A DNA stretch of 36,803 bases from Hydrogenophilus sp. (lineage in GTDB: Bacteria > Pseudomonadota > Gammaproteobacteria > Burkholderiales > Thiobacillaceae), in NCBI GenBank assembly GCA_020692235.1, contig JAIMKU010000001.1:16984-53786 (forward strand), in the 5' to 3' direction. This document shows positions 8,401 to 12,309 of this stretch, piece after piece. The first letter of the stretch is position 1. The number at the start of each line of letters is the position of its first letter. The position numbers and the translations under genes are program-made. The notes beneath the pieces were generated by a model, which searched no databases, was not told where the DNA came from, and was given only the letters and a program-made list of their open reading frames with translations.

Positions 8401-8805
8401 ATGACCCGCATCACCCTCCTACTCGCCGCCCTGCTCGCAGTCGTCCCGCAAACCGCGCTGGCCGCAGCGCCCGGCACCTTGCTGGATACCTATCGGACCG
8501 CCGCTCTGAAGGAGGATGCGGGTTTCCGCGACTTCTCCGCGCCACGCGGCGAGCAATTCTTCCACGCCAAGCATGGCGACACCAGTTGTGCTACCTGCCA
8601 CACCGACAATCCCAAGGCGGGCGGCAAACATGCCAAGACCGGCAAGGCCATCGAGCCCTTGGCGCCGGTCGCCAACGCCAAGCGTCTGAGTGACCCGGTC
8701 AAGGTGGAGAAATGGTTCAAGCGCAACTGTAAAGATGTCCTGCAACGCGCCTGCACCGCCCGTGAGAAAGGCGATTTCGTTGCCTGGCTGATTTCTGTCA
8801 AATAA
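8401..8805 (+). CDS. shp: Sphaeroides heme protein (SHP)-like monoheme cytochrome c, DUF1924
   Basis: Small periplasmic cytochrome, 134 aa. It has a clean signal peptide (about residues 1-22, ending in ALAA) and one heme-binding CATCH motif (63-67). The family-typical tail has RLSDPVKVEKWFKRNC and CTAREKGDFVAWLISVK, with two extra cysteines that may form a disulfide. The SHP family is known for a high-spin heme whose distal Asn ligand can be displaced by oxygen or other diatomics. N92 in the PVANAK stretch is a candidate but cannot be confirmed by eye. AGAGGA lies seven bases before ATG 8401. The gene leads an operon with dhc and the cytochrome b fusion, its expected electron-donor partners. 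Confidence 0.88.
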   Translation: MTRITLLLAALLAVVPQTALAAAPGTLLDTYRTAALKEDAGFRDFSAPRGEQFFHAKHGDTSCATCHTDNPKAGGKHAKTGKAIEPLAPVANAKRLSDPVKVEKWFKRNCKDVLQRACTAREKGDFVAWLISVK

Positions 8806-8818
8806 AGGACCCATAAAC

Positions 8819-9304
8819 ATGAAACCCATGCTCAGTTTGCTGCTTGCTCTCAGCCTCGTAAGTACGGCGGCCCTGGCCGAATCCGGCAACCGATATGGTG
8901 GCAAGGATCGCGGCAAAACGCTCATCCCCGGCCAGTCAAACAGCCTGTGGAAACAGGAATGCGGTTCCTGCCACTTGGCCTTTGCCCCCGGCCTGTTGCC
9001 CGCCGAATCCTGGCGCAAGGTAATGGGCGGCCTGGACAAGCACTTCGGCGCGGATGCCTCGCTGACGCCGGAGGAAAATCGCGAGATCACCGCCTTTCTG
9101 GTGAATAACGCCTCCAGCCGCTGGCGCGCGCCCACCGCGCCGCTGCGCATCACCGAGACCGCCTGGTTCAAGCACAAACACCGCGAACTCGCCAGCAGTG
9201 TCTGGAAACGCGCTGCCGTCAAGGGCCCGGCCAACTGTGCCGCCTGCCACAGCGGCGCCGACCGGGGCGACTTCAACGAAGACCGCGTGCGCGTTCCACG
9301 CTAA
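8819..9304 (+). CDS. dhc: Diheme cytochrome c (DHC)
   Basis: Periplasmic diheme cytochrome, 161 aa, with a signal peptide ending at about residue 20 (TAALAES). The two heme sites are CGSCH (48-52) and CAACH (140-144). The stretches CHLAFAPGLLPAESW, DKHFGADASL and PLRITETAWFKHKHREL are characteristic of the DHC family found next to SHP. The known role is to pass electrons from a membrane cytochrome b to SHP. It sits 13 bp after shp. The C-terminal domain of the next gene is a clear paralogue of this protein, sharing the CGSCHLAF and NCAACH stretches. Confidence 0.92.
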   Translation: MKPMLSLLLALSLVSTAALAESGNRYGGKDRGKTLIPGQSNSLWKQECGSCHLAFAPGLLPAESWRKVMGGLDKHFGADASLTPEENREITAFLVNNASSRWRAPTAPLRITETAWFKHKHRELASSVWKRAAVKGPANCAACHSGADRGDFNEDRVRVPR

Positions 9305-9331
9305 CAGACTCCTAATCCAAGCCACCACTTG

Positions 9332-9360
9332 CCGCAGTGGGCGGGCGATGCCCACTGCGG
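9332..9360 (+). other. Perfect 11-bp hairpin between dhc and the cytochrome b fusion gene
   Basis: CCGCAGTGGGC (9332-9342) pairs with GCCCACTGCGG (9350-9360) across a 7-nt loop in the 92-bp gap between dhc and the next operon gene. There is no T-run. A processing or stability element that sets the ratio of soluble to membrane cytochrome is one reading; partial termination is another. Confidence 0.6.
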
Positions 9361-9396
9361 CCACCCGCTCATCGTCGTCGATTCAAGAGACCATTC

Positions 9397-10539
9397 ATGC
9401 AACCCACCCTGATCTGGGACCTTCCCCTGCGTCTGTTTCACTGGTTGTTGGCTGCCAGCTTTCTCGGCGCCTGGCTGACCTCCGAATCCGATCAATGGCT
9501 GTCGCTGCACAGCTTTTTCGGTTATCTCATGCTCGGCCTGATCGGTTTTCGCCTGGCCTGGGGTCTGGCCGGTAGCCGTTACGCGCGCTTTTCCTCGTTT
9601 CTCTATGGTCCGCGCGCCGGTCTGGAGTATCTGCGCCAAGCCATCGCCGGCAGCGCGGAGCGTCATCTTGGCCACAACCCGGCGGGCAGCCAGGCGGCCT
9701 TCCTGCTGCTTGGGCTGGGACTGTTGGCGGCCTTCTCCGGGCTGTTCGTGCAGGGCGGCGAGGAACAACATGGCGCGGCCGCAGTAGGCGTGCTGGGCTT
9801 CGCGGCCGGCAAGGCGATCAATGAGGTGCACGGGCTGCTCGCCAACCTGATGCTGCTGGTGGTGTTCGGCCACCTGGCCGGGGTGGCCTTGGAGAGTTGG
9901 CTGCACAAGGAAAATCTGGTGCGCAGCATGGTCACCGGTCTGAAGGCGGCCGCGCCGGGCACCCCCGCCGTCCGTCCCCACACGCTGATTGGCCTGCTGC
10001 TGCTGGTTGCCGTCGCGGCCTTCGGCGCCTGGTGGTTTTTCTATGCCTGGCATGAGCCGGTGGAACGGCTGGGCGGTCATGACGATGCCGCCAACGAGGC
10101 GCCACATGTCGCCTTCGTCGGCAAGACTCTACCCGAGAGCGCCAAGTGGCAAGAGGAATGCGGTTCCTGCCACCTGGCCTTCCACCCCAGCCTGCTGCCG
10201 GCGCGCTCCTGGCAGGCCTTGCTTGCCGGGCAGAATCGCCACTTCGGCGACGACCTCGGGCTGGATGCCGCCACCGTATCCGATCTGCTTGCCTTTGCCG
10301 TGCCCAACGCCGCCGAACAGGGCGCGACCGAAGCCGCCTGGAAGCTCAATCGTTCTGTGCCGGCGGGCAGCACGCCGCTGCGCATCTCGGAAACGCCGTA
10401 CTGGACCAAGAAGCACCGCGAGATCGCCGATGCCGATTGGCAGAATCCCAAGGTGAAGAGCAAGGCCAACTGCGCCGCCTGTCATCGGGATGCCGAGGCC
10501 GGCACCTTTGAGGATGCGGCGATGCAGGTACAGAACTGA
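9397..10539 (+). CDS. Cytochrome b561 fused to a C-terminal diheme cytochrome c (DHC) domain
   Basis: A 380-aa predicted membrane electron carrier. Residues 1 to about 185 form a cytochrome b561 (Ni/Fe-hydrogenase b-subunit type) domain with four membrane helices. Candidate heme b histidines are H15 (RLFHWLL), H38 (LHSFFGY), H145 (VHGLLAN) and H159 (FGHLAGV). After a further helix (about 198-216, TLIGLLLLVAVAAFGAWWFF) comes a periplasmic DHC domain with CGSCH (255-259) and CAACH (359-363). ATG 9397 places the first helix normally; the upstream ATG at 9337 would add a charged tail read through the hairpin. The likely route is quinol pool to heme b to the DHC domain, then free DHC and SHP. The fusion of both modules is notable. 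Confidence 0.9.
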   Translation: MQPTLIWDLPLRLFHWLLAASFLGAWLTSESDQWLSLHSFFGYLMLGLIGFRLAWGLAGSRYARFSSFLYGPRAGLEYLRQAIAGSAERHLGHNPAGSQAAFLLLGLGLLAAFSGLFVQGGEEQHGAAAVGVLGFAAGKAINEVHGLLANLMLLVVFGHLAGVALESWLHKENLVRSMVTGLKAAAPGTPAVRPHTLIGLLLLVAVAAFGAWWFFYAWHEPVERLGGHDDAANEAPHVAFVGKTLPESAKWQEECGSCHLAFHPSLLPARSWQALLAGQNRHFGDDLGLDAATVSDLLAFAVPNAAEQGATEAAWKLNRSVPAGSTPLRISETPYWTKKHREIADADWQNPKVKSKANCAACHRDAEAGTFEDAAMQVQN

Positions 10540-10695
10540 GCCCCGGTCACCGCAGGCCAAAGAGGACCGACAGACTCCCGGCGATTACGATTCGGTAAGG
10601 TGGCTGGACGTCGTTATGCCCCATATTATTAATCATGTGGCTAAAAAGCGTCAAAAAAGAGATCGACTGGAAATCGCAAGACGTCCGTCATTCCG
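10540..10695. other. Non-coding left flank of the IS, unusually AT-rich from about 10600
   Basis: No convincing gene. The stretch from about 10616 to 10695 is far richer in A and T than its neighbours (for example CCATATTATTAATCATGTGG) and could be a relic of another inserted segment. The missing 5' end of the FMN reductase gene that resumes after the IS is not found here. No terminator is evident after the cytochrome b gene. Confidence 0.5.
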
Positions 10696-11802
10696 TGCTT
10701 ATCGGGTTGTCACACACGCCCACTAAATATAGTGAGCCGTGATTTTGCGGCGTAAAGCTCGGCATAGGTCGGTGCAGTGACATCGCCAGCGATACCGAGC
10801 AGAGAGAGGAAGGCGTTGAAAGGGTAGAAGCGGCGGTTGAAGCGAAAAGTGAATTCGTTGAGATAGGCCGGGAGGTGTTGCGGGCTGACACCATGATGGG
10901 TTCCACGCAACCAGGTCTTTAGATTGGAGAACACAAGGTGAATGATCGGCAGAAAGGTCTCGGCAACTTGCATGTTGCCCCGCTCCGCGACGGCGGTATG
11001 GCAATAGCCGCGTTCGCCCAGTTTCGCGTAACCGCTCCAGTCATCGGTGATGATGATGGCACCGGGTGCAACGGTGCGCTCGATGAATCCGCCCAGCGAC
11101 TTGGCGCTGCGATCCGGCGCAACGGCAAGGCGAACACGTCCTGCGTAGCGCCCGGTCCTACGCTGATTGCGGATCCCTTGCTGCTTGCGCTGGCGGACTT
11201 CAACGGCGCCGGCCACGAGTACCATGTCGTGGACGCCCCTCCCTTTGCCGCGGGTACGTCCACCGATGTAGGTTTCATCGGCCTCGACGTGTTCCTCGTG
11301 CTTACCACCAATTCGATCCTGGTTGGGTCGCACCATGCCGACTCGCAGCTTGTGAAGAATCTGGAACGCGGTCTCGTAGGACTTGAGTCCGAGTTGCCGC
11401 TGAAACTGAACCGCCGACATGCCGGGCGTTTGACTGGTCACCAAGTATGCTGCCCAGAACCAAACCGAGAGTGGAGTGTGCGTGCGCTCCATGACGGTGC
11501 CGGCGGTGAGACTCGTGTCACAGCGACACTTCCGGCAACGGAGCACGCCGGGACGAGTGGCAATACGGTAAGGCTCACCGGACGTGCCACAACGAGGACA
11601 GACAAAGCCATTGCACCATCGCGCGCGCTCAAGGTAGGCCGCACATGCCGCCTCGTGCGGAAACAGCCGCTGAAACTCCGGCAGCGAGCGTGGAAACACC
11701 AAATCGCCTCGCTCAAGAACGTTGATCGCCACCGCAGCCCTAAGTTGATGCAATTGCTCAACATACTACCTGTAGCGGGTGTGTGTGACAACCCGATAAG
11801 CA
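10696..11802. mobile_element. IS1595-family insertion sequence, 1107 bp
   Basis: The ends are inverted repeats of 26 bp (10696-10721 and 11777-11802) with one mismatch; the conserved core reads TTATCGGGTTGTCACACAC. One transposase gene fills the interior on the minus strand, and its stop lies inside the left repeat. The family normally makes an 8-bp target duplication. The flanks here (TCATTCCG on the left, TACAATCA on the right) do not match, which points to a deletion or recombination beside the element. The right end abuts a truncated FMN reductase gene. Confidence 0.88.
10710..11753 (-). CDS. IS1595-family transposase
   Basis: DDE transposase of the IS1595 (ISXO2-like) type, 347 aa from TTG 11753; GTG eight codons in is an alternative start. 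An N-terminal zinc ribbon with C52, C55, C73 and C76 (CPRCG, CRKC) precedes a helix-turn-helix-like region (SAVQFQRQLGLKSYETAFQ). The catalytic core shows D159 (HVEADETYIGG), D237 (ITDDWSGY) and E300 (YLNEFTFRFNRRF). The frame is intact with no stop or frameshift, so the element could still be active. The stop codon is formed within the left terminal inverted repeat, as often seen in compact IS elements. Confidence 0.93.
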   Translation of the reverse strand: MHQLRAAVAINVLERGDLVFPRSLPEFQRLFPHEAACAAYLERARWCNGFVCPRCGTSGEPYRIATRPGVLRCRKCRCDTSLTAGTVMERTHTPLSVWFWAAYLVTSQTPGMSAVQFQRQLGLKSYETAFQILHKLRVGMVRPNQDRIGGKHEEHVEADETYIGGRTRGKGRGVHDMVLVAGAVEVRQRKQQGIRNQRRTGRYAGRVRLAVAPDRSAKSLGGFIERTVAPGAIIITDDWSGYAKLGERGYCHTAVAERGNMQVAETFLPIIHLVFSNLKTWLRGTHHGVSPQHLPAYLNEFTFRFNRRFYPFNAFLSLLGIAGDVTAPTYAELYAAKSRLTIFSGRV

Positions 11803-12309
11803 TACAATCACGCAGCGTTGCGCGCGGCGCAGGAGTTGCTACCGGCCGGCGCGACGCTGGACCTGATCGAGCTCACCGGCATCCCGGTATTCAACCAGGA
11901 CGACGAAGCGGCGCCGCCGGCCGCGGTGGTCGAGTTCAAGCGCCGGATTCGCGCCGCCGCCGCCATCCTGTTTGCCACCCCGGAATACAACTACTCGGTG
12001 CCCGGCGGCCTCAAGAACGCCATCGACTGGGCCTCCCGGCCTTATGGCGACAATGCCTGGGCCGGCAAGCCGGCGGCGCTGATGGGCGCCTCCATCGGCA
12101 ACCTGGGCAGCGCCCGCGCCCAATACCATCTGCGCCAGATACTGGTCGCCTTCGACATGGCTGTGGTCAGCCAGCCGGAGGTGATGATAGGCAATGCCGC
12201 GCAACGCTTCGACGCGGCGGGCCGGCTGACCGACGACCCGACCCGGCAGCACATTCAAAAGCTACTGGAAACCTTGGTCAAGTTGGGCAGGAATACCAGG
12301 GTCGCCTGA
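11803..12309 (+). pseudogene. NADPH-dependent FMN reductase, 5' end lost at the IS junction
   Basis: In-frame coding from the first base after the IS reads YNHAALRAAQELLPAGATLD and continues 168 codons to a normal C-terminus. The flavodoxin-like FMN reductase signature is clear: ATPEYNYSVPGGLKNAIDW and KPAALMGASIGNLGSARAQ. Intact relatives begin about 15-20 residues earlier with an ILGISGSLRxxS-type strand and FMN-phosphate loop, of which only the YN remains. A TAA inside the IS end (11797-11799) closes the frame upstream. The first possible start is TTG 11818, which would yield a protein without the flavin-binding loop. The missing 5' part is absent on the far side of the IS, so the gene is very probably dead. 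Confidence 0.82.

Follow-up and report, generated by a model that had tools for sequence, protein, structure and literature searches.

The 36,803-nucleotide stretch of Hydrogenophilus DNA analysed here (the window) carries, on its forward strand between positions 8401 and 10539, what is in all likelihood an SHP operon of the CytB/mDHC-chimera type, in which electrons would run from quinol through b hemes, a tethered diheme cytochrome and a free diheme cytochrome to SHP, where O2 or NO would be turned over. The first of its three genes (8401-8805) encodes SHP, a 134 aa protein matching PF09086 (DUF1924; E = 7.6e-38) with the solved relatives 1dw0 and 1e8e. Thirteen bases further on lies the gene for a free diheme cytochrome c, sDHC (8819-9304, 161 aa; PF09626, E = 8.6e-38; solved relatives 2fw5, 2fwt and 3u99), which is followed after a gap of 92 bases by the CytB/mDHC fusion gene (9397-10539, 380 aa). 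The fusion protein matches both PF01292 (residues 7-181, E = 2.8e-25) and PF09626 (residues 251-371, E = 1.1e-37) in one frame, and the Pfam cut-offs were exceeded by far for all domain matches of the three proteins. With CytB and DHC in one frame, and with a free DHC and SHP clustered beside them, the locus has the make-up of a CytB/mDHC-chimera SHP operon. These matches bear out the first-pass annotation, which had described an SHP-DHC operon whose cytochrome b gene carries a fused DHC domain, had noted a free DHC paralogue upstream, and had correctly placed the motifs CGSCH and CAACH at residues 255-259 and 359-363 of the fusion. A search of the same genome at E 0.001 returned one SHP, two DHC domains and one PF01292 match, the latter three all at this locus. 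The closest named relative found was a Hydrogenophilales metagenome assembly (L004), with 89% identity in the fusion.

A fused frame of this kind might arise from a frameshift or misassembly joining two genes near position 10080, an outcome against which the first-pass annotation had itself warned, and two-gene forms are indeed known in other operons, for example in Caballeronia. However, with the fusion protein as query, CytB and DHC were found in one open frame in 21 of 23 loci of other assemblies, the remaining two (L025, L026) containing CytB only. Moreover, the stretch between the domains is conserved, as is the spacing from one CxxCH motif to the next, which across 59 fused frames is 104 residues in 39, 102 in 14, 103 in three, 100 in one and 106 in one; L020 is the sole frame of the 59 to lack the second heme motif. 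The recurrence of the join and the motif spacing exclude an artefact, to which we attach a vanishingly small probability. The fusion is real, intact and well conserved. The order SHP-sDHC-fusion was found in 17 of the 21 fused loci, the exceptions being L012, where the fusion stands alone, L016, in which the contig ends on the SHP side, L018, which lacks sDHC, and L024, where sDHC comes first.

As an SHP, the first protein would be expected to bind O2 at its ferrous heme and to lose a heme ligand on reduction. The SHP of the window has a c-type heme motif (CATCH) in keeping with its PF09086 membership, an Asn at the sixth-ligand position followed by a Cys pair, and a Trp four residues before the Asn. 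All of these residues are widely shared: across 65 SHP domains the Asn and the Trp are each present in 65/65 and each of the two Cys in 64/65. The N-termini of both SHP and sDHC are hydrophobic and, judged by eye, look like signal peptides. Two heme sites are present in both DHC copies, and in the 107 aligned DHC domains columns 255, 258 and 259 and His282 are conserved in every row, whilst columns 359, 362 and 363 and His340 are each conserved in 106. In the fusion, the CytB residues His15, 38, 93, 145 and 159 and the mDHC residues His259 and His363 (of the motifs), His282 and His340 are invariant in 35 aligned fused proteins, out of a set of 40 distinct fused frames of which five were left unaligned. 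The Asn, the Trp and the Cys pair of the SHP heme have been discussed by Meyer, Kyndt and Cusanovich (2010; PMC2909971, cited throughout from part of its text).

An AlphaFold model built from 35 sequences (mean pLDDT 81.6) gives the fusion helices at residues 9-27, 32-58, 95-121, 135-169 and 196-219, followed by a low-confidence stretch and then the DHC domain. The first four helices make up the cytochrome b561 part (9397-9978; PF01292), in which the five invariant CytB His residues lie. The fifth membrane helix (residues 196-219; 9982-10053) leads into a linker of about residues 220-242 (10054-10122) that is probably flexible, and the mDHC domain itself spans 10147-10509, with CGSCH at 10159-10173, CAACH at 10471-10485 and the conserved His282 and His340. 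Model confidence falls below pLDDT 50 at residues 220-242 and 358-380, the latter including the second heme motif. Lys and Arg residues number five in loop 2-3 and four in loop 4-5, with none in loops 1-2 and 3-4, and the net charge after helix 5 is negative. By the positive-inside rule, this distribution predicts that helix 5 places the C-terminal heme c domain on the periplasmic side; c-type cytochromes mature in the periplasm. A plain hydropathy scan (19 residues, cut 1.6) recovered the fifth helix in 11 of 14 fused frames, with L166, L136 and L191 falling below the cut. In fold comparisons the fusion matched DHC 2fw5 and showed a weak match (E 0.08) to 1kqf_C, the cytochrome b of formate dehydrogenase N.

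From this anatomy and the literature we infer the following electron path. The four-helix CytB would oxidise quinol, the presumed donor, whilst the fifth helix and the flexible linker would hold a diheme cytochrome of its own at the periplasmic face. From the b hemes, electrons would then pass to mDHC, on to sDHC, if the two DHCs act in that order, and finally to SHP, whose ferrous heme, a putative binder of O2 or NO, would turn the ligand over, perhaps by NO dioxygenase or oxygenase chemistry. The available text of PMC2909971 likewise proposes that a quinol likely reduces CytB, which passes electrons to mDHC and sDHC and thence to SHP, and cites both the reduction of SHP by DHC and a report of NO dioxygenase activity in Rb. 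sphaeroides (Li et al.). The wired path through heme b, tethered diheme and mobile diheme to SHP put forward in the first-pass annotation thus fits the anatomy and this published model, but is not a new idea.

A different role for the fusion is suggested by genomes in which it stands without SHP. One such genome (G024), listed as 100% complete, has an intact fusion (L012) that is 72% identical to that of the window, together with a second, separate DHC, yet yielded no PF09086 match; SHP is therefore not an obligatory partner of the fusion. Six further fusions (L177, L190-L194), which make up a subclade of their own (100/100), lack both SHP and sDHC in the 4-4.5 kb retrieved. However, SHP was found elsewhere in five of the six corresponding genomes (G517, G550, G574, G585, G648), G520 not being among the matching genomes. 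In L018, SHP and the fusion occur with no sDHC within the 5-kb flanks, and the free diheme may therefore be dispensable. The fusion could accordingly be a general quinol-to-periplasm donor with SHP as one of several acceptors, the tether freeing it from the need for a soluble diheme. We regard this as a credible minority reading, set against the 17 of 21 fused loci that retain the SHP-sDHC-fusion arrangement. Probably the fusion can serve something besides SHP; for the window, we retain the SHP operon described above.

To place the fusion in a wider context, PF09626 was searched in samples of the family, the class and the phylum, the window genome being in all three. All full-length matches in frames of at least 337 aa, and some shorter ones, were fetched and checked with purpose-built profiles, unfetched shorter frames being scored as unfused by length; a DHC match was taken at E <1e-20 and matches were counted twice by eye from the tables. 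The fusion was found in 12 of 117 genomes of the family sample, 18 of 369 of the class sample and 18 of 398 of the phylum sample, or in 12/96, 18/59 and 18/90 of those with a full DHC match. The first-pass annotation had said that its reading would suffer if the fusion were the common form of the family; the fusion is not the common form, yet it is recurrent and far from unique. Nor is it a rare novelty, a view ruled out by these samples and by the chimeras described in PMC2909971. Within the seven genomes of the window's genus, two have the fusion (G000, G035), two are unfused (G034, G037), two contain short DHC frames only (G036, G038) and one contains none (G039). In one fused frame of the class sample (L144) the CytB part is shortened. 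Beside the fused frame, L140, L144 and L152 also contain a second, unfused four-helix CytB frame.

The history of the tether was examined in an unrooted tree (126 columns) of 107 DHC domains, of which 50 are tethered and 57 are free. They were drawn from the window's class and from other classes of the phylum, a named Ruegeria plasmid (L196) being among the sources, and cover Pseudomonadota only. All 50 tethered domains fall on one side of a single branch (99/94, 98% of 200 bootstrap trees), which a smaller, 90-row tree had supported at 96/86. The phylogeny of the two DHC domains proposed in the first-pass annotation therefore separates tethered from free copies. They are also distinct at position 263, which is His in 45 of 50 mDHC and Pro, Gln or Ala in 53 of 57 sDHC; Asp365 is present in 49/50 tethered domains. 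This single group argues for one origin in the sampled Pseudomonadota, where several origins are unsupported, although Campylobacterota may have had a separate one. A local addition of the DHC domain to a CytB gene is doubtful, since the tethered domains group across the phylum and the domain may have been lost from some unfused CytBs.

The free CytBs fall into two sets, as most end just after helix 4 whilst twelve end after an extra hydrophobic stretch (L060, L050, L064, L092, L095, L102, L105, L169-L171, L174, L197), a few of which are rich in His or Asp at the end. Five-helix status was assigned by reading the tails and is weak for L105 (hydropathy 1.14). These twelve form one clade (99/90), nested within a group (93/96) to which all 44 fused CytBs in the tree belong, as does L026, an unfused CytB lacking the fifth helix. 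Their position suggests that mDHC was lost with the helix left behind. However, CytB alone does not reject a clade of all fused CytBs (AU p 0.299 and 0.316), so the unfused five-helix CytBs might instead be the sister group of the fused CytBs. When SHP, sDHC and CytB from 66 operons were concatenated, that clade was rejected (p 8.8e-5), and the five-helix unfused operons came out as sister to the window's fused clade with a support of only 91/58. This p value is not clean, because most four-helix CytBs fall in another CytB group and the three genes therefore probably lack a shared history; exchange of CytB genes between operons is probable.

Judged from these sequences, some unfused CytBs may have shed a tethered domain. 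We give an even chance to the fuller account, namely that the tether is old and arose once in Pseudomonadota, and that the two-gene form in the clade including Burkholderiales is derived, having shed the domain and kept the helix. If so, the seemingly useless fifth helix would mark a free CytB as a molecular fossil of the fusion, and the chain could run whether tethered or not. Against the several independent chimera origins suggested in the available part of PMC2909971, partly from the Campylobacterota chimeras, this sets a testable single origin in the sampled phylum with possible loss. The natural pairs of fused and shed forms would offer a direct test of tethering a diheme to its quinol-oxidising partner.

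Several smaller features were observed within the operon and its relatives. The first heme sites of sDHC (8952-8982) and mDHC (10151-10181) share 28 of 30 bases despite the distant paralogy of the two domains, which could reflect local gene conversion or codon bias. The gap between sDHC and the fusion holds a hairpin on the forward strand (9331-9361; 13-bp stem, 5-base loop), a stretch with a z of -2.04 that was equalled in stability by 5 of 200 shuffles. L004 also has a hairpin at this place (before 5505), though with a different sequence. Such a hairpin could determine how much of the soluble parts is made relative to the membrane part. In six relatives the same gap contains a conserved micropeptide of 18-32 residues with the core GTGxGGxG, at about 5391 in L005, 5550 in L006, 5451 in L007, 5409 in both L010 and L011, and 5405 in L023; it is absent from the window. 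Five of the cores read GGTGMGGTG and differ only at third codon positions, which is all that the DNA search pattern permits. This pattern was found in six of 117 family genomes, five times at these loci and once (G084) inside a longer protein that we take to be of DUF5666 type. Lastly, an apparent SHP-DHC fusion in L153 was set aside as a probable frameshift, as its second part starts with its own signal-peptide-like stretch and its SHP part seems to lack an end.

Downstream of the fusion, the window carries an IS1595-type element (10696-11802) whose terminal repeats share at least 20 bases. At the corresponding position L004 contains a 905 aa PAS-GGDEF-EAL-CZB-hemerythrin gene and an intact FMN reductase (6720-9530 in L004, about 2.7 kb). 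In the window (10635-11830) the former is cut to its first codons (from about 10635 to the element) and the FMN reductase lacks about its first 16 codons. A divergent gene lies upstream of SHP in five relatives (L005, L007, L010, L011, L023), and the two examined (L010, L011) encode a GGDEF domain together with a CZB match under the Pfam cut-off (22.5 vs 29.4 bits). The idea of a regulator common to these neighbourhoods was considered and rejected: a response regulator lies directly downstream of the fusion in L006, L012, L015, L022 and L024, but the same query found no match among the window frames at E 1e-8. Upstream of the operon the window contains a phosphoribosyltransferase, read as pyrE, and an Exo_endo_phos protein.

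The wider surroundings of SHP also raise the alternative of a role in metal stress or metal-linked redox chemistry in place of the detoxification of NO or O2. Thirteen plasmid records contained SHP, of which five annotated ones and a sixth without annotation were opened. Copper or heavy-metal transport genes were found within about 6 kb of SHP in four of the five annotated records, two of these being near-identical Ruegeria plasmids, but this sample is small, hand-chosen and without a control for the frequency of metal genes on such plasmids, and the Pseudomonas record has no metal gene. A linkage to Czc/CzcD is noted in the part of PMC2909971 available. Moreover, in the portion of PMC11267869 available, Alvin_0022 (DUF1924), which is probably the SHP of A. 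vinosum, stands second in Table 1 of genes induced on pyrite relative to sulfide (log2FC 7.10). The neighbouring DHC, b561 and metal efflux genes were also induced there, with values of 5.54 for Alvin_0023 and 5.13 for Alvin_0021, and the neighbours FieF and CzcA were likewise up on pyrite. The window has a P-type cation ATPase about 3.3 kb past the fusion, beyond the IS element. However, this protein has Cation_ATPase_N and _C domains, a heavy-metal role for it is putative, and it is separated from the fusion by the IS element, the FMN reductase fragment and an MFS gene. We consider a metal-related function rather unlikely and keep NO or O2 as the presumed substrate.

The window locus represents a further case of a known system, since a CytB/mDHC chimera with SHP and sDHC was already described in PMC2909971 as a three-gene operon of Rb. 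sphaeroides, with five further species named as having the chimera. The two operons agree in the CytB-mDHC fusion, the free sDHC, the SHP Asn ligand and Cys pair, and the proposed path from quinol to SHP; neither has regulators inside it, the Rb. sphaeroides SHP operon being without regulatory genes according to the available text. They differ in gene order, which is SHP-sDHC-CytB/mDHC in the window and CytB/mDHC-SHP-sDHC in Rb. sphaeroides; in the chimeras outside Rhodobacteraceae given there, SHP precedes CytB. Where that text gives one betaproteobacterial chimera (Rhodoferax ferrireducens), we found loci labelled Hydrogenophilales, Gallionellaceae and Nitrosomonadales, and the locus thus adds a clade of betaproteobacterial assemblies, several apparently from groundwater, to a little-studied system. 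Relative to the part of PMC2909971 available, three modest points are new: the tethered domains form a single group, some unfused CytBs keep an orphan fifth helix, and one fusion occurs in a genome where no SHP was detected. The Rhodospirillum rubrum CytB/SHP chimera of the same paper also joins a heme c partner to cytochrome b, but the partner is SHP and not DHC; a 373 aa frame with CytB and SHP domains in L099 (676-1794; G530) resembles it. An unfused counterpart of the window is found on plasmid p3 of Caballeronia zhejiangensis (L197), where SHP, DHC and CytB are adjacent and in the same order. Unlike the window protein, its CytB stops after the fifth helix and a short tail, without mDHC; the genes after it encode a protein of response-regulator type and an ATP-binding protein.
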